A DNA stretch of 64,000 nucleotides from an uncultured Thermanaerothrix sp. (GTDB taxonomy: Bacteria > Chloroflexota > Anaerolineae > Anaerolineales > Anaerolineaceae). The notes beneath the pieces are model-generated. The model was not told the origin of the DNA. It saw nothing but the letters and a program-made list of their open reading frames with translations, and did no database searches. The stretch is from contig NZ_CALIMF010000015.1 in the NCBI RefSeq assembly GCF_938028735.1, positions 1 through 64,000 of the forward strand, written 5' to 3'. The translations under genes were made by a program, and so were the position numbers. Below are positions 23,947 through 36,945 of this stretch, piece by piece (position 1 is the first letter of the stretch; each line of letters starts with the position of its first letter).

Positions 23947-24060
23947 CTTGGTGCTGTTTGCGCTAGCGCAATCATGCATTGGGCAAAATGCTTTATTCTA
24001 ACTTTTAGGTTATGGGTTTATCCTTGACCGCCTGGAAGCTCATTTCCACAAGGAGGCATA

Positions 24061-26130
24061 ATGAAGCCACGCTGGATTCTCTGGGTTTTGTTGGGGATTG
24101 GAATGCTAGGATTGACGGCCTGTGCGGGTCGGCCTCAACCAACGCCGGCGCTCACCCCTGTGTTAGCAGAGCCCACGCTGACTGCTGGGGAAGATACTCT
24201 GGGATTGGCGATGGAGGGATTCAAAAAAGGGGGGTGTGGCGCTTGCCATGTGATTCCTAGGGTGCCAGGCGCACAAGGTACCATTGGGCCGGATCTGACG
24301 AACATCGCTGAGGTGGCTAAAAAGCGGCTGGAGTCGGGTGAATATAGCGGTAAGGCCAAGACCGTGCTTGATTATTTGCACGAGTCCATTGTGGATCCGG
24401 ACGCTTTCCTAGCCCCAGATTGTAATGGAGTACCTTGTCAGAAAGGGCTGATGCCCGCAAATCTGGACAAGCTCCTAAGCACGGCAGAAATCGAGGCTAT
24501 GGTTCAATATCTCTATCATCCACCGGAGAAGGTTGCAGAGCAAGAACTCTCTGCACCGACGCAAGCCGTTTCGGCGGCCGGCTCCTCAACCCTCTTAAGT
24601 GAGGAGGAGTTTGCCTGGGCCAAGCAGGTTTATTTTGAGCGCTGCGCTGGTTGTCACGGGACCTTGCGAAAGGGCGCAACTGGGCCGGCCCTCACACCTG
24701 ATCAAACGCAACCCAAAGGAACCCTTGCTTTAGCCTCCATTATTTTCAACGGGACGCCCCGTGGAATGCCAGATTGGGGTAAGCAGGGTTTCTTCACCCA
24801 AGAACAGACGGAGATTATGGCCAAGTTCTTGCAAATGGAACCGCCCGCGCCGCCAGAAATGTCGCTTGAGCAGATGAAGCAGACCTGGAAGGTTCTAGTG
24901 CCTCCCGATCAGCGACCTACTCAGCCCCAAACAACACGCGATTGGCAGAATTACTTTGTGGTGACGTTGCGAGATGCCGGACAGGTAGCTGTGATTGATG
25001 GAAATACTTATGAAGTAGTGGCAAAACTCGATACTGGGTATGCGGTTCATATTTCGCGGATGTCAGCAACAGGCCGATATGTTTACGTTATTGGCCGTGA
25101 TGGTCGTCTTTCGATGGTGGATCTTTGGCCTGAAGTGCCTCAAAAGGTCGCCGAGGTACAAACCTGTTATGATGCTCGGTCGGTAGAGGTCAGTAAATAT
25201 AAAGGTGAATTGGGAGATTTCAGGGATCGTTATGCCATCGTCGGTTGTTATTGGCCTCCTCATTTTGTTATATTGGATGGGCAGACGCTGGAGCCTTTCA
25301 AAATCGTGAGCACGCGAGGATACACGGTTGACACGGAAGAGTACCATCCCGAGCCCCGTGTGGCCGCCATTGTTGCCTCGCACCTTAAGCCAGAGTGGAT
25401 CGTCAACGTCAAGGAGATTGGTCAAATTTGGTTAGTGGACTACAGTGATCCGCATAACCCAACTATTAAGATGATTGAAGCCGCCCGCTATCTGCATGAT
25501 GGTGGCTGGGATGCCACGAAGCGCTACTTCCTGGTGGCAGCCAATCAATCGAACAAGGTAGCTGTTGTAGACAGTTTGGAAGGCAAGTTGGTGGCTCTGA
25601 TAGATACGCCAGCGGTCCCCCATCCAGGGCGAGGAGCCAACTGGGTGGATCCGCAGTTCGGCCCAGTCTGGAGCACGGCCCATCTGGGGGATGCGGCGAT
25701 CACTACCATCGGCACCGACCCGGTCGGGCACCCACAGTATGCCTGGAAAGCGGTTCGCGAGATTGCGTTACCTGGTGCTGGCAGCCTGTTCATCAAAACA
25801 CACCCCACCAGCCCATGGATTTGGGTGGATATGACCCTGAACTCCGAGCCACAATTGGCGCGTACCATCTGCGTGGTGGCTAAATCCGATCCTACTCGGC
25901 CGTATAAATGCTGGGAAGTGGCCGACTACGGGCGGGCTACACACTTTGAATACAATCGCCAGGGCACCGAAATTTGGGTGAGTGTATGGGGTACTGCGGA
26001 TAAACCAGGCCAAACCGGCGAGATCGTCATCTACGACGATCGCACTTTGCAGGAGAAAGCTCGCATTCCTAACCTAGTCACCCCGACTGGTAAGTTCAAT
26101 GTTTACAACACAGTGAATGACATTTACTGA
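24061..26130 (+). CDS. nirS: Cytochrome cd1 nitrite reductase with extra N-terminal cytochrome c domain, lipoprotein
   Basis: NirS reduces nitrite to NO in denitrification. The signal peptide has the lipobox LTAC (cysteine 21), so the enzyme should be anchored outside the membrane. Two heme c motifs are present: C59-GAC-H63 in an additional domain (about residues 40-160) and C195-AGC-H199 in the normal NirS cytochrome domain. The eight-bladed d1 propeller covers about residues 295-689, with H330 (YAVHISRMS, the d1 ligand) and the substrate histidines H429 (YHPEPRV) and H479 (LHDGG). The C-terminal TPTGKFNVYNT is diagnostic. At 689 residues it is longer than ordinary NirS (about 560-600). No d1-heme synthesis genes are nearby. 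Confidence 0.92.
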   Translation: MKPRWILWVLLGIGMLGLTACAGRPQPTPALTPVLAEPTLTAGEDTLGLAMEGFKKGGCGACHVIPRVPGAQGTIGPDLTNIAEVAKKRLESGEYSGKAKTVLDYLHESIVDPDAFLAPDCNGVPCQKGLMPANLDKLLSTAEIEAMVQYLYHPPEKVAEQELSAPTQAVSAAGSSTLLSEEEFAWAKQVYFERCAGCHGTLRKGATGPALTPDQTQPKGTLALASIIFNGTPRGMPDWGKQGFFTQEQTEIMAKFLQMEPPAPPEMSLEQMKQTWKVLVPPDQRPTQPQTTRDWQNYFVVTLRDAGQVAVIDGNTYEVVAKLDTGYAVHISRMSATGRYVYVIGRDGRLSMVDLWPEVPQKVAEVQTCYDARSVEVSKYKGELGDFRDRYAIVGCYWPPHFVILDGQTLEPFKIVSTRGYTVDTEEYHPEPRVAAIVASHLKPEWIVNVKEIGQIWLVDYSDPHNPTIKMIEAARYLHDGGWDATKRYFLVAANQSNKVAVVDSLEGKLVALIDTPAVPHPGRGANWVDPQFGPVWSTAHLGDAAITTIGTDPVGHPQYAWKAVREIALPGAGSLFIKTHPTSPWIWVDMTLNSEPQLARTICVVAKSDPTRPYKCWEVADYGRATHFEYNRQGTEIWVSVWGTADKPGQTGEIVIYDDRTLQEKARIPNLVTPTGKFNVYNTVNDIY

Positions 26131-31587: not shown

Positions 31588-34500
31588 ATGAAGTTGCTTT
31601 TGGAATGGATCCGTGCGTCCTTGAACGAGCCTGAACAGGGCCTGGTGTTGCGGGCATTACGCCATGATCCCATTGTTTGGGAGTCACTTCAGGAAGTCAG
31701 TGTGCTAGGAACACTGAGTGGAGTCAAACGTGATGCTTGTGAGTTGTGGATGGCCGGGAGTTTGGCTATCTCCTTAATCCAGCCCACGGTTCATGCTACG
31801 GGGATCTCAGCCCTGCAACGCTTGGCCGGTGATGAATCCATTGTGCGTGAGGGGGTGACACTCCTGGGATGGGTGGAAAAGGGACATGCTCCAAGCAATT
31901 TGCGAGAAGCAGGGTTGGTAGCGCTGGAATTATGGCGACGCGCTCAGGAAACCTCTTGGGAAAATATCTTGCCTCATGAGCAATTTGAGACCGATCCTGA
32001 ACGGTGGAATGCTCCCCTAGTTTGTCTATGGGGATACTTAGATGATCCTCATGCCTTGTTGGAATTCTTAGCGGCACTACCAGAGCCGCTGAGCTATCAT
32101 CATGTGCTCCACGTTTTGCTTAGTCAACCCTTAAGCGATCAGGAACAGTGGGAGTATCTGCGCCCGGTGATCCTCAGGCAATCTCTGTCGCAGCAAGTGC
32201 AGTGGCCTTGGTACCTCCTTCAGGAAGGACGGAAAGAATTGGCCGGTCTCACAGCAAGTCATGTGTTGGTTCTTTCCCGAAGGGCTCTGGAGGCATGGTG
32301 TGACCAGGATATTTCTAACCTGACCACGTGGAGCGACCTGAAAGAACGTGCGTTCTGGTTGCATGCGACAGCGTTGTTGTTTCGACTGAGCGGTATGCCC
32401 GCGAGAAGCCTGGAGCGATTAGAACAATTACAGGCTTTGCTGGATTACTGGAAAGCCGGTGTGGCGATACAACAGATGGCGCTATATCCTTCTGGATCTT
32501 TAGGTCAAGAGGCTTCGACGAAGTTTCCTGGGTTGATCTTGGAGCAATTCTCTGTATGGGGATTAGGAGATGCGCTGGCCCTTTCCGGACAGGAGTTAGG
32601 AGAATGGGATATTAATACCCCGCCGATTCTACTGGAAGTTCTTAAGTGGGCCAGAAAAAGCGAAACAATTCCAGATGCGCAGCGCCAGATTCTGGTTGAG
32701 AGATTGCGCTCCTGGTTGGAGGATCAAGATGCGGCGCACCTTCAGAGGGTGATGGCTTGGCTGGGTAAAGTAGATCCCAAGCCCTTGTTAAGGGCATTGC
32801 AGCGTTTAGGGCTGAGTGAATTGGGCATTGAAGTAGGGCAGCGAGTTTTGGAGTATCTCTCTCCCTCCGAAGACCTCTTTCTCCAGATGTGTGATCTCTG
32901 CGATGAGGCGGGTTTTTATCAACAGGCGCTAATTTATGGATTACAAGGGGTTATCCACTTTCCACAATCAATTCCCATAAGGCGAAAACTGGCCCGTGCC
33001 TATGAGCGTTTGGAGGCCTGGGAGAAAGCATTAGAAGAATGGCGACATCTCACTGGAGATGAGACCTTGGAGGATAAAATCAATGATCGAATGTCGCTAA
33101 TTTACTGTGCCATCCAGGTGGGGCGGTTTCAGGAGGCCTTTGAGGAGTGCCAGAGGGTCTTAAACGACTCGCCTGAAAACGGCATGGCTTACGCTTACCT
33201 TGGGGTCATCTTATTAGAAAATGGGGAGATGGAGGAAGCCGTTCAGGCTTTAACCCAAGCTACCCTTTTGTGTCCTACTGAGGCCTACCCCTGGGTAAAA
33301 CTAGCCGAGTACTACCAGCGTCATGGCGAGGTCACAAAGGCGATCGACACCCTTCGCAGTGCCAGCCTTGTCTTGCCGACTTCGGCAGAAATTCATCTGG
33401 CGTTAGGAAAAATTCTCCTGGAGCGAGGGAATCTCTCTGAAGCGCTGCCTTACTTACGCCGTGCGAGTGATTTGACTCCGAACTCTTACGAAGCTAATCT
33501 CTTGCTGATCCAGACCTTGCTAGGGTTAGGCTATCATGAAGAAAGCCAGGCTGTTTTGATGCGGGCTGGTGCGCATTGGCCTGACGATCCCCACTTGATT
33601 TTCCTGAAGGCCTGCTTGCAGCAACGGTTGGGGGCAGAAGCCCATCAGGTGCGAGAGACGATGCGTTCCCTTTTGGATCACGGGGATGTGAGGCCCGAAT
33701 GGGCATGGTTCTATCTCAAAACCTTGTGGAATAAAGATGAAGATCTCCTGAATCTGGGAGCACATGCTCTACCAGAGGAGTTGGAACAGGCACAGGCCTT
33801 GTTACGCCGCCTTCTGGTTCAGCAGCCTGATAATCAGAATGCCCAATTACTTATGGGATGTGTATTACTGGCTCGGGGGCAGAGCGAGGTGGCGTTAAGT
33901 ATCTTCCAGACGCTGGAGAGTGATCGAAAGTCCCTGGAGTATTGCAAGCAAGCCGTCCTTCTGGGTGGGATTGGGATGAGTGCCTTGAAGCAACATCAGC
34001 CCGAGGTTGCTTTGGCGGCGCTGGAAGAGGCCATTGCCCTTTGTCCCGAGTGGCCAAGATTGCACATGGCGTTAGCAGAGGTTTATGCCTCTCTCAATCT
34101 CAAAGCCGCGGCTCAAGAAACTGCCAATCGGCTTCTGGATCACTTTGCAGATGATTTAGAAGTTGTGGAATGGTTTGTACAATTTGCAAATCAAGAGCAG
34201 TGGATAGAAGAGAAGATAAAAGGATTAGAGCAAGCCACAGCGTTGGTTCCACAATGTGGAACTTACTGGTTAAGACTGGCAGATGCCCTAGCCGAGGGGG
34301 GAGAGGAAGAACGCGCGCTTGAAATTCTAACGACACTTTCCTCTCAGCCTCATCTGGATGCAACGGTTGTGTCAATGCTCAGCCAACGCCTATATGCGCG
34401 CAACAACTATCTGCTGGCTGCCCACTCGTTGTGCCGATTGAAAGGGGAGGCAGAGTTCTGGAATAAGGAGCGGAGTTTGCAAGTTGCACTTTTGTCCTTT

Positions 34501-36945
34501 TTGGCGGGCGAGCTGGAAACAGCGCGGGCTGCTCTCCTGGAGACACTCGAAATGGCCCCTGATTGGCTACCTGCTCGCGTCGTTCAGGCGTATTGGTTAA
34601 CCCGAGAGGGGCGAGCGTCGGAAGCAGTGGCTGTCCTAGAAGCCATCTTGCAGCAAAGGCTAGATGATCCGCTCTTTGAGGACTCTGATATCAAGGATTG
34701 GACTCATGATTTGCTTCAGAAGGGCGGAATTGACTTCTCGAGGGGTGCTGTTCATTTCCTGTATGCTCGTCTCAAACTTCGGTTAGGTGACATCGAAACT
34801 GCTTATGTGCATTTTGTACGTGCGGCAACTCTGTGCCCCCAGGCGCTGGCCTATCGTGGATGGGCAGTTTTGGCGGCGCAGGCAACATTACGTTTTACAG
34901 AGGTGCGCGCTCTTATAGAGGTTGAACCGGCTACCTTTGAAGCAATACAGTTAGGGGATGCAGAGCGAAACTGGCGTGCACTAATGATGCTTCTTGCCGG
35001 CGAGCTCGCGTTGGAAGAAGGCGATCTTGAAGGCGTTTATCAAAGGATTGAGCAGAGCCTGGCGTGGCGCGCTGACTTTCCCCGTGCCATCGCTCTCAAA
35101 GTCCGTTACTTGGCGACACTGGGGCGGTGGCGTGAAGCGCGTGCTCTTTATGAGCGTCTGGGACCCGTTATTCAGGCTGCACTCTTGGGCGTCTTTGAGG
35201 AGCATGAGGTAGGCATGGAATGGGGGTGGTTGGGCGAAGCGGCGCTGGCGGTTTTAGATTGGGAACGCGGGCTTCAATTGTTGCAAAGCAATGCCGAGCG
35301 GTTTTCTGGTATGCCGATAGCACACTGGCGGCTGGCACGTGCATGGGTGGTAACCCAAATGGCCTGTACTTGGGCAGATGTACTGGGGATTCAGGATCAC
35401 CGGCCTCCTGAGATTCCAGATGTCTTGAAGCGCTTTGAGGAAGCCTTGGCAAAACTGAAAGATTGTAGCCAGGAAGCCCTCGTTGAACAGTTGCGTGTTT
35501 GGGGATATGGTGTCTTTGCCCCCACTTATTCCAATGTACGCGCGTTGGTTGGCCTACCGCTGAACAGTGAGCGCGCAGCCGCTTTGCTCGTGGCATTGGT
35601 TCATCTACAAAACTGGCCCGGCGCAGAAAAGGTGGCAGAGCAGTTCATGCAAGATGTCTGGATGCAATTCTACGCAGCCACTTTTCTAGGAACGCGGGCG
35701 CCTGAGAAAGGGATGATGTGGGCGCTCAAGGCTCTTGAGGAACTAAGCGATTTCCCACCTTTGTTTGTGGCGCTGGCGCGTTGTGCCCGTGCAGCGAGTA
35801 ACCTGGAAGTAGCCCTGGAGGCCATGGATCGCGCATTGAATCTGTGGCCCTCTGAATGGAGGTGGCTAGAAGAGGCGGCCAGCCTTGCCATGGAAACCGA
35901 AAATCCCTCCCGGGCTGTTGACTTTCTGGAGCGCCTGTTGCAGGAGTGCCCCAACCATCTAGCAGCCCATCTGAATCTAGCCCGGTTGTATGTGGATCTC
36001 AATCAAGGAGTATTGGCCCGGGGACACCTGGAACAGGCTCTTCTATTAGCGCCTGAAAATCCAGAAGTTGTTCTTCAGTATCTTCAGACCCTGTGGGTTC
36101 TTGGAGAGGCTCAAAAGGTGGTGGAGATTGCTAAGAGCTATCTAGATAAATTTTCTGACCGATCCACGTTGCTAAAAGTGGCTGCTCGGGCGGCAATAGA
36201 AACGGGCTCTTGGGAGTACGCCAACACCTGGACGCAAACGCTTATAGAGAAAGGGGAAGATGATCCCGAGTCTGTCTTGTTGCGAGTGGCTTATCTAGAA
36301 CGGAGGGAGGATAAGCGCAAGGCTTTGGCCTACTTGGATCGGGTCATTGAGTCCCGGGACGAGAATGTGGCACTACTGGGTGAAAAGGCTCATCTGATCA
36401 GTCAACTGGACGGTTATGCGCAGGCGTTACCCATTATCCAAAAGGTTTTGACCCAAGATCCGGAGAATTCTGCAATGCTTGGGCTGGCAGCACAAGCGTT
36501 TTGGTCATTAGGCGATATCACACAGGCGGAAGCGATGGCGCTTAAGGGGCTGCAAAATATGCCCGATCAGGAAAATCTGCACATGTTGATGGGGCAGATA
36601 TGTTCCCAAAAGGGGCAATTGGATAAAGCCCTTTATCACTTTGGTGAAGCCTTGCGGCTGAATCCACAGAATCTTGAGGGCTATCTGGCCATGGCAAAAG
36701 TGTATCAACTACGGCGCGAATCTCCCAAAGCATTTGAGATCTATCAGCAGGCCTTGCGTATTGCCCCACGGGATCCGCGGGTATATTACGAGTATGGCTT
36801 AGCACTTCGGGATGGCAAAGATTATTTGGCTGCTGAGTCCATGCTGCGCCGAGCAGCCCAGTTAGCTCCGGACAATCTGGCCATCAAGCGTCAGTTGGGG
36901 GCTCTGGTGGCTTTGAATTTAGTGCATCAACCCCAGGAGGCATGA
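31588..36945 (+). CDS. Giant TPR-repeat protein (1785 residues)
   Basis: A soluble all-helical protein with no signal peptide or membrane segment. The first about 420 residues are helical but do not show clear TPR spacing. From about residue 430 to the C-terminus the sequence is a long array of tetratricopeptide repeats, visible as recurring W/Y-x-x-L-G-x-x-Y...A-x-x-x-Y/F...P motifs (for example AYLGVILLENGEMEEAVQAL and YEYGLALRDGKDYLAAESML). No catalytic motif is evident. TPR superhelices bind peptides or partner proteins, so a scaffold or recognition subunit is likely. The stop overlaps the ribosome binding site of the downstream TPR-protease gene. Confidence 0.88.
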   Translation: MKLLLEWIRASLNEPEQGLVLRALRHDPIVWESLQEVSVLGTLSGVKRDACELWMAGSLAISLIQPTVHATGISALQRLAGDESIVREGVTLLGWVEKGHAPSNLREAGLVALELWRRAQETSWENILPHEQFETDPERWNAPLVCLWGYLDDPHALLEFLAALPEPLSYHHVLHVLLSQPLSDQEQWEYLRPVILRQSLSQQVQWPWYLLQEGRKELAGLTASHVLVLSRRALEAWCDQDISNLTTWSDLKERAFWLHATALLFRLSGMPARSLERLEQLQALLDYWKAGVAIQQMALYPSGSLGQEASTKFPGLILEQFSVWGLGDALALSGQELGEWDINTPPILLEVLKWARKSETIPDAQRQILVERLRSWLEDQDAAHLQRVMAWLGKVDPKPLLRALQRLGLSELGIEVGQRVLEYLSPSEDLFLQMCDLCDEAGFYQQALIYGLQGVIHFPQSIPIRRKLARAYERLEAWEKALEEWRHLTGDETLEDKINDRMSLIYCAIQVGRFQEAFEECQRVLNDSPENGMAYAYLGVILLENGEMEEAVQALTQATLLCPTEAYPWVKLAEYYQRHGEVTKAIDTLRSASLVLPTSAEIHLALGKILLERGNLSEALPYLRRASDLTPNSYEANLLLIQTLLGLGYHEESQAVLMRAGAHWPDDPHLIFLKACLQQRLGAEAHQVRETMRSLLDHGDVRPEWAWFYLKTLWNKDEDLLNLGAHALPEELEQAQALLRRLLVQQPDNQNAQLLMGCVLLARGQSEVALSIFQTLESDRKSLEYCKQAVLLGGIGMSALKQHQPEVALAALEEAIALCPEWPRLHMALAEVYASLNLKAAAQETANRLLDHFADDLEVVEWFVQFANQEQWIEEKIKGLEQATALVPQCGTYWLRLADALAEGGEEERALEILTTLSSQPHLDATVVSMLSQRLYARNNYLLAAHSLCRLKGEAEFWNKERSLQVALLSFLAGELETARAALLETLEMAPDWLPARVVQAYWLTREGRASEAVAVLEAILQQRLDDPLFEDSDIKDWTHDLLQKGGIDFSRGAVHFLYARLKLRLGDIETAYVHFVRAATLCPQALAYRGWAVLAAQATLRFTEVRALIEVEPATFEAIQLGDAERNWRALMMLLAGELALEEGDLEGVYQRIEQSLAWRADFPRAIALKVRYLATLGRWREARALYERLGPVIQAALLGVFEEHEVGMEWGWLGEAALAVLDWERGLQLLQSNAERFSGMPIAHWRLARAWVVTQMACTWADVLGIQDHRPPEIPDVLKRFEEALAKLKDCSQEALVEQLRVWGYGVFAPTYSNVRALVGLPLNSERAAALLVALVHLQNWPGAEKVAEQFMQDVWMQFYAATFLGTRAPEKGMMWALKALEELSDFPPLFVALARCARAASNLEVALEAMDRALNLWPSEWRWLEEAASLAMETENPSRAVDFLERLLQECPNHLAAHLNLARLYVDLNQGVLARGHLEQALLLAPENPEVVLQYLQTLWVLGEAQKVVEIAKSYLDKFSDRSTLLKVAARAAIETGSWEYANTWTQTLIEKGEDDPESVLLRVAYLERREDKRKALAYLDRVIESRDENVALLGEKAHLISQLDGYAQALPIIQKVLTQDPENSAMLGLAAQAFWSLGDITQAEAMALKGLQNMPDQENLHMLMGQICSQKGQLDKALYHFGEALRLNPQNLEGYLAMAKVYQLRRESPKAFEIYQQALRIAPRDPRVYYEYGLALRDGKDYLAAESMLRRAAQLAPDNLAIKRQLGALVALNLVHQPQEA

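Follow-up and report, generated by a model that had tools for sequence, protein, structure and literature searches.

Where would a nitrite reductase obtain its heme d1 if the genome that encodes it has none of the known genes for making d1? The question is raised by a nirS gene in the window, a 64,000-nucleotide stretch of DNA from an uncultured Thermanaerothrix sp. An earlier note, made from the letters alone, had described the gene as a lipid-anchored NirS with an additional cytochrome c and all three d1-site histidines, and our searches bear this out: the ORF lies exactly at 24061-26130 on the + strand and encodes a lipobox cysteine (Cys21), two CxxCH motifs, and H330, H479 and H521. All features below are on the + strand.

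24050..24056, +, Shine-Dalgarno-like AAGGAGG ahead of the nirS start codon (sequence)
24061..26130, +, nirS fusion ORF, 689 aa: lipoprotein C1, cytochrome c C2, d1 propeller (sequence; profile and PDB searches)
24061..24123, +, signal peptide with lipobox LTAC, Cys21 (sequence; C21 nearly invariant in a 10-member alignment)
24193..24525, +, C1, SoxX-like cytochrome c domain, CGACH at 59-63 (TIGR04485 match; alignment; model)
24529..24591, +, linker, residues 157-177, predicted disordered (pLDDT <50)
24598..24834, +, C2, NirS cytochrome c domain, CAGCH at 195-199, Met236 (= P. aeruginosa Met88) (Pfam; PDB match; alignment)
24940..26112, +, d1-heme beta-propeller, Cytochrom_D1 (PF02239, 448 bits)
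25048..25050, +, His330 = P. aeruginosa His182, axial d1 ligand (alignment)
25495..25497, +, His479 = P. aeruginosa His327, active site (alignment)
25621..25623, +, His521 = P. aeruginosa His369, active site (alignment)

Anatomy and family of the fusion

Sequence matches and a structure model give the window protein the NirS architecture of a cytochrome c domain and an eight-bladed d1 propeller. The top PDB matches were the P. aeruginosa and Paracoccus enzymes (E about 2e-192), with the C2-d1 part matching P. aeruginosa NirS from one end to the other at about that same E value, and Pfam placed Cytochrom_D1 at residues 294-684 (E 1e-133) and Cytochrome_CBB3 at 188-257. The two heme c motifs are C59-C62-H63 and C195-C198-H199, and counterparts of His182, His327, His369, Arg156, Arg198 and Arg372 are all in place. 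The protein thus shares C2-d1 and the catalytic and checked d1-contact residues with canonical NirS of P. aeruginosa and Paracoccus pantotrophus (1nir, 1qks), which is soluble and periplasmic and has no C1, whereas the window NirS has C1 and, from a lipobox read by eye, is predicted to be lipid-anchored. C1 covers the whole SoxX profile (TIGR04485) but at 48.5 bits misses the 61-bit cut-off, and there is no sox setting around the gene; its Met131, invariant in the 10-member alignment, is the likely sixth ligand. In the model (mean pLDDT 80.9) C1 is a helical domain of its own on a disordered linker, as would suit a tethered donor; the flexible linker is the model's sole yield.

The fusion is ordinary for Anaerolineae and has been known since 2022, hence it is not the novelty here. 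In the sections available of Schwartz et al. 2022 (PMC8756737), a C1-C2-NirS fusion is described from Chloroflexi together with NirK and cupredoxin variants and conserved histidines; it matches the window's in architecture, phylum, conserved active site and isolated gene. The sections seen of Pold et al. 2024 (PMC10999283) assign the fusion to clade 1g. An origin as an assembly artefact was ruled out as well, since the full-length fusion was found in 10 of 400 genomes sampled from the phylum, the window's among them; the window protein is 65-76% identical over its full length to the other nine.

C1 is not confined to NirS. It is carried by NirK in 5 of the 400 phylum genomes, and a C1-like free lipoprotein occurs in 6 further ones. 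The available part of PMC8756737 treats the NirK fusion as a possible artefact; because it was found in five genomes at 66-82% mutual identity, we consider it real. The earlier note had suggested that the extra heme domain is a built-in electron donor, and, judged from sequence, the occurrence of C1 on NirK and as a free lipoprotein fits a general donor module. The C1-type cytochrome c on copper NirK was seen at L012-L016, in five same-order genomes, two of which add an N-terminal cupredoxin-like domain. A further N-terminal domain that looks cupredoxin-like by eye also precedes fused NirS at L011, L044, L047, L052, L054 and L055, as in the NirK fusions; by this reading the domain has been exchanged between unrelated nitrite reductases. 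Two other loci stand out: NirS of Candidatus Desulfolinea nitratireducens (L045:9875-12232) has three CxxCH motifs, indicating yet another N-terminal cytochrome c, and in the isolate Anaerolinea thermolimosa IMO-1 the nirS frame (L063:9920-12402) is broken close to the His327 motif, through a sequencing error or because the gene is a pseudogene.

We scanned 84,980 species genomes for NirS loci and took the best 80 of 581 relatives, among which 14 gammaproteobacterial loci (Woeseiaceae, Lysobacterales and others, within L073-L106) carry a second, different N-terminal cytochrome c fusion. Like the window protein these have an extra N-terminal heme c, but their C1 is unrelated-looking (NCAACHQ type). 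In a tree built on the C2-d1 part that all have in common (84 rows; duplicates L006 and L011, L056, L063, and the short L061 and L069 omitted), the 14 form one branch with support 88 inside gammaproteobacterial NirS, a clade separate and far from the Chloroflexota branch. Clear independent fused lineages number only two, with L072 perhaps a third.

Conservation of the d1 pocket

Side-chain contacts of d1 are made by R156, R198 and R372, according to the portion of PMC7278500 consulted. Neither these arginines nor H182, H327 and H369 vary across the 14 gammaproteobacterial and 29 Chloroflexota fused rows; the latter include two genomes twice and one row that stops before H369/R372. Among 117 positions invariant in NirS of PF17805-positive genomes, fused Chloroflexota show no departure at 98 and fused gammaproteobacteria none at 109; the remaining 19 and 8, respectively, vary mostly in one or a few rows. 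In 10 of 10 pairs dN is far below dS, with the C2-d1 part most constrained (dN 0.012-0.117, dS from 0.47 to saturation), and the frame is open in all ten full-length fusions of the phylum sample. The d1 pocket is under strong purifying selection. Woeseiales nirS, which may or may not be of the fused type, is transcribed in sediment according to the part seen of PMC7451513.

Search for d1 and tetrapyrrole synthesis genes

The earlier note had placed the gene between trmFO and rpoN with no d1 genes nearby, and this is what we find: nirS sits between genes for TrmFO, whose match clears its cut-off, and sigma-54, which at 251 bits narrowly misses its cut-off of 277 bits; neither has an evident link to nitrite, and d1 genes are not local to nirS. 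Elsewhere in the window, a 1785-aa protein, TPR-rich by eye, is encoded at 31588-36945, and genes for a sensor kinase and an NtrC-type regulator lie upstream of it.

We carried out the genome-wide search that the note had proposed, using the profile PF17805, which comprises NirD/L/G/H and the Ahb siroheme decarboxylases, a NirF profile built from 16 loci, and NirJ. The window's assembly of 2.62 Mb yielded no PF17805 match, no NirF and, at E 1e-40, no NirJ, the best partial radical-SAM match reaching 79 bits; its single PF02239 match is NirS itself. P. aeruginosa and Paracoccus pantotrophus, with canonical NirS, by contrast have a d1 synthesis operon. This assembly has 38 contigs and is 88% complete, so that for it alone absence is not proof, and the case for absence therefore rests on near-complete relatives.

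Most of the 87 genomes surveyed are MAGs. None of 29 distinct Chloroflexota genomes with fused NirS (duplicates G018=L048 and G055=L052 removed) had PF17805 over its cut-off, G401 giving one sub-threshold match (24.9 of 27 bits). Nor did any of the 14 gammaproteobacterial fused genomes from the best 80 of 581 relatives or of three genomes with a non-fused Chloroflexota-type NirS (L059, L060, L062), against 35 of 41 genomes with ordinary non-fused NirS. NirF and NirJ were searched in 80 of the 87, leaving out G446, G466, G467, G469, G474, G475 and G476, all PF17805-positive and non-fused. NirF, and NirJ at >=300 bits, were missing from all 43 fused and the three non-fused Chloroflexota-type genomes; the other 34 non-fused genomes had NirF in 27 and NirJ at that score in 28. 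Seven fused Chloroflexota genomes that are 98-100% complete, two of them in one contig, were negative for PF17805, NirF and NirJ alike. Since the non-fused L059, L060 and L062 also lack PF17805, the fusion is not itself the cause of the absence; on the tree, fusion and absence could be compared in 3-4 independent pairs, too few to judge by (sign test p 0.25-1).

NirJ-like matches were considered as a d1 enzyme and rejected: the window's genome has partial radical-SAM matches only, and fuller proteins in five Chloroflexota genomes (144-172 bits) were set aside, as by their C-terminal motif they presumably belong with other radical-SAM/SPASM proteins. Two radical-SAM genes lie close together at L023 and L025 (G000 contig 14), and similar pairs occur in several NirS-bearing relatives.

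HemC is required for any tetrapyrrole. A SUMT (NirE/CobA) search of 65 of the 87 genomes and a HemC search of 51 found neither in the window's genome. Of the 29 fused Chloroflexota, 4 have SUMT and 16 lack HemC, two 99%-complete same-family genomes and one in a single contig being among the 16; of the 14 fused gammaproteobacteria, 10 have SUMT and 13 HemC, and HemC was found in all 6 controls. Genomes free of both, the window's and several near-complete relatives, probably make no tetrapyrrole at all, and wherever HemC is missing tetrapyrrole uptake would be needed even for c hemes. The cytochrome-bearing Anaerolineae G000, G104, G216, G064 and the one-contig G112 are without HemC and apparently unable to make any tetrapyrrole.

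Whereas the parts seen of PMC8756737 deal with nirS neighbourhoods of 20 kb, the present survey is genome-wide and is read in terms of auxotrophy; as far as the literature found shows, partly in excerpt, the genome-wide absence of d1 genes from fused-NirS genomes is the unpublished part. Nothing on d1 uptake or auxotrophy was found in the literature searched; nir biosynthesis genes are mentioned as tabulated by clade in the part available of PMC10999283, and those tables, outside that search, may list some of the absence.

Gene neighbourhoods and the possible source of heme d1

A TonB receptor of the TIGR01785/01786 (heme/hemoglobin) type adjoins nirS in 12 of the 14 fused gammaproteobacterial loci among the best 80 of 581 relatives, and in 8 of the 14 it is on the same strand and ends 28-176 bp upstream of the nirS start. 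Five of the 12 exceed the TIGR01785 or TIGR01786 curated cut-off (L073, L085, L093, L104, L106) and seven fall slightly under (L075, L081, L084, L086, L090, L092, L094); some matches lack the N terminus, through match limits or a contig end. A different TonB receptor is directly upstream of nirS in L103, and L074 has one about 3 kb upstream. In the other 66 of these 80 loci (42 non-Chloroflexota, 29 of them with >=3 kb of upstream sequence) the only heme-type receptor was a partial match in L089, 8 kb away. These receptors may simply import ordinary heme as an iron source. In the Chloroflexota loci the surroundings of nirS showed no heme importer and no gene that is shared by all; a Crp/Fnr-type regulator occurs in 7 of 25 loci and Nar genes in 3 of 25. 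In the latter three (L045, L054, L055) fused nirS has narH, narJ and narI upstream within 10 kb, whereas published descriptions have no nitrogen genes nearby. A NorB-type NO reductase is encoded near nirS in L086, L092 and L094.

The earlier note had held that a lack of d1 genes throughout the genome would argue against NirS function. The lack is borne out, in the window's assembly and in near-complete relatives including two single-contig genomes; because the pocket and purifying selection are kept, we prefer cofactor auxotrophy to loss of NirS function. On sequence grounds, the fused NirS is probably a working nitrite reductase of heme-d1 auxotrophs that take d1 from other denitrifiers, with C1 as a tethered electron donor. 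An intact-looking NirS without cofactor genes in the window bacterium, its relatives and an unrelated marine group suggests that d1 is obtained from neighbours.

Should d1 instead be made along a route yet to be discovered, de novo or by the remodelling of imported heme and with enzymes that are no relatives of NirDLGH, NirJ and NirF, the fully kept pocket would be in keeping with it, siroheme could be the starting point in the gammaproteobacteria with SUMT and HemC, and the 144-172-bit radical-SAM proteins of some fused Chloroflexota might take part. De novo synthesis is hard to reconcile with the 16 of 29 fused Chloroflexota in which HemC is missing, however, no recurring gene beside nirS resembles a replacement enzyme, and we regard this route as unlikely. 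We think it quite unlikely that a different tetrapyrrole (heme b, siroheme) occupies the propeller, or that the propeller serves as an NO/redox sensor or scaffold rather than as a nitrite reductase. The absence of known d1 genes would suit such a role, a different function is raised in the sections seen of Schwartz et al. (PMC8756737) and a d1-free scaffold role of NirS is mentioned in the part consulted of PMC7278500, but the invariant catalytic H327 and H369, the invariant d1-binding arginines, and the nearby Nar genes (three Chloroflexota loci) and NorB-type reductases argue against it.

That d1 genes are present and were missed, through MAG gaps or divergence under the models, is very improbable. 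Gaps do occur, six of the 41 non-fused genomes being PF17805-negative and three of those six having NirJ, but the contrast of 0 of 43 fused with 35 of 41 non-fused genomes, the seven near-complete negatives, HemC in 13 of 14 gammaproteobacterial fused genomes, which implies that gaps are modest, and the detection of archaeal PF17805 members in controls all count against it. A horizontally acquired, decaying relic, to which the isolated location and the A. thermolimosa frame break might point, is hardly credible, given dN low against dS in ten pairs and ten of ten frames open.

If heme-d1 auxotrophy is correct, NirS would be exported, tied by its lipid to the membrane's outer face and fitted with two c-type hemes. 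With the known d1 route absent, its pre-formed propeller pocket would be filled by d1, or dihydro-d1, that nearby denitrifiers release; C1 on its flexible linker would take electrons from the membrane chain and hand them to C2, from which they would reach d1 and reduce nitrite to NO. Anaerolineae are mostly single-membrane cells, so that the lipid-anchored NirS would face the outside directly, and the gammaproteobacteria would need an outer-membrane receptor for d1, for which a candidate adjoins nirS. Loading with outside d1 is plausible because, in the parts available of PMC7278500, the d1-free NirS crystal structure is open and pre-folded and d1 binding is the last maturation step; NirS also stays active with dihydro-d1 (PMC7278500, PMC3694632, both in part). 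Free d1 in the environment is not documented in the literature found.

More tentatively, d1 may be a shared good: two lineages, having lost its synthesis or always lacked it, would respire nitrite with d1 from their neighbours, the Gammaproteobacteria through a dedicated nirS-linked TonB receptor and the Chloroflexota through a lipid-anchored apo-NirS at the surface, each having added a second N-terminal heme c. This would be a new cofactor dependency between community members and, as far as the literature searched shows, the first d1 uptake system, with named receptor candidates. nirS commonly serves as the marker gene for denitrifiers, and counts of it would overstate independent nitrite reducers if some nirS carriers depend on others for d1.
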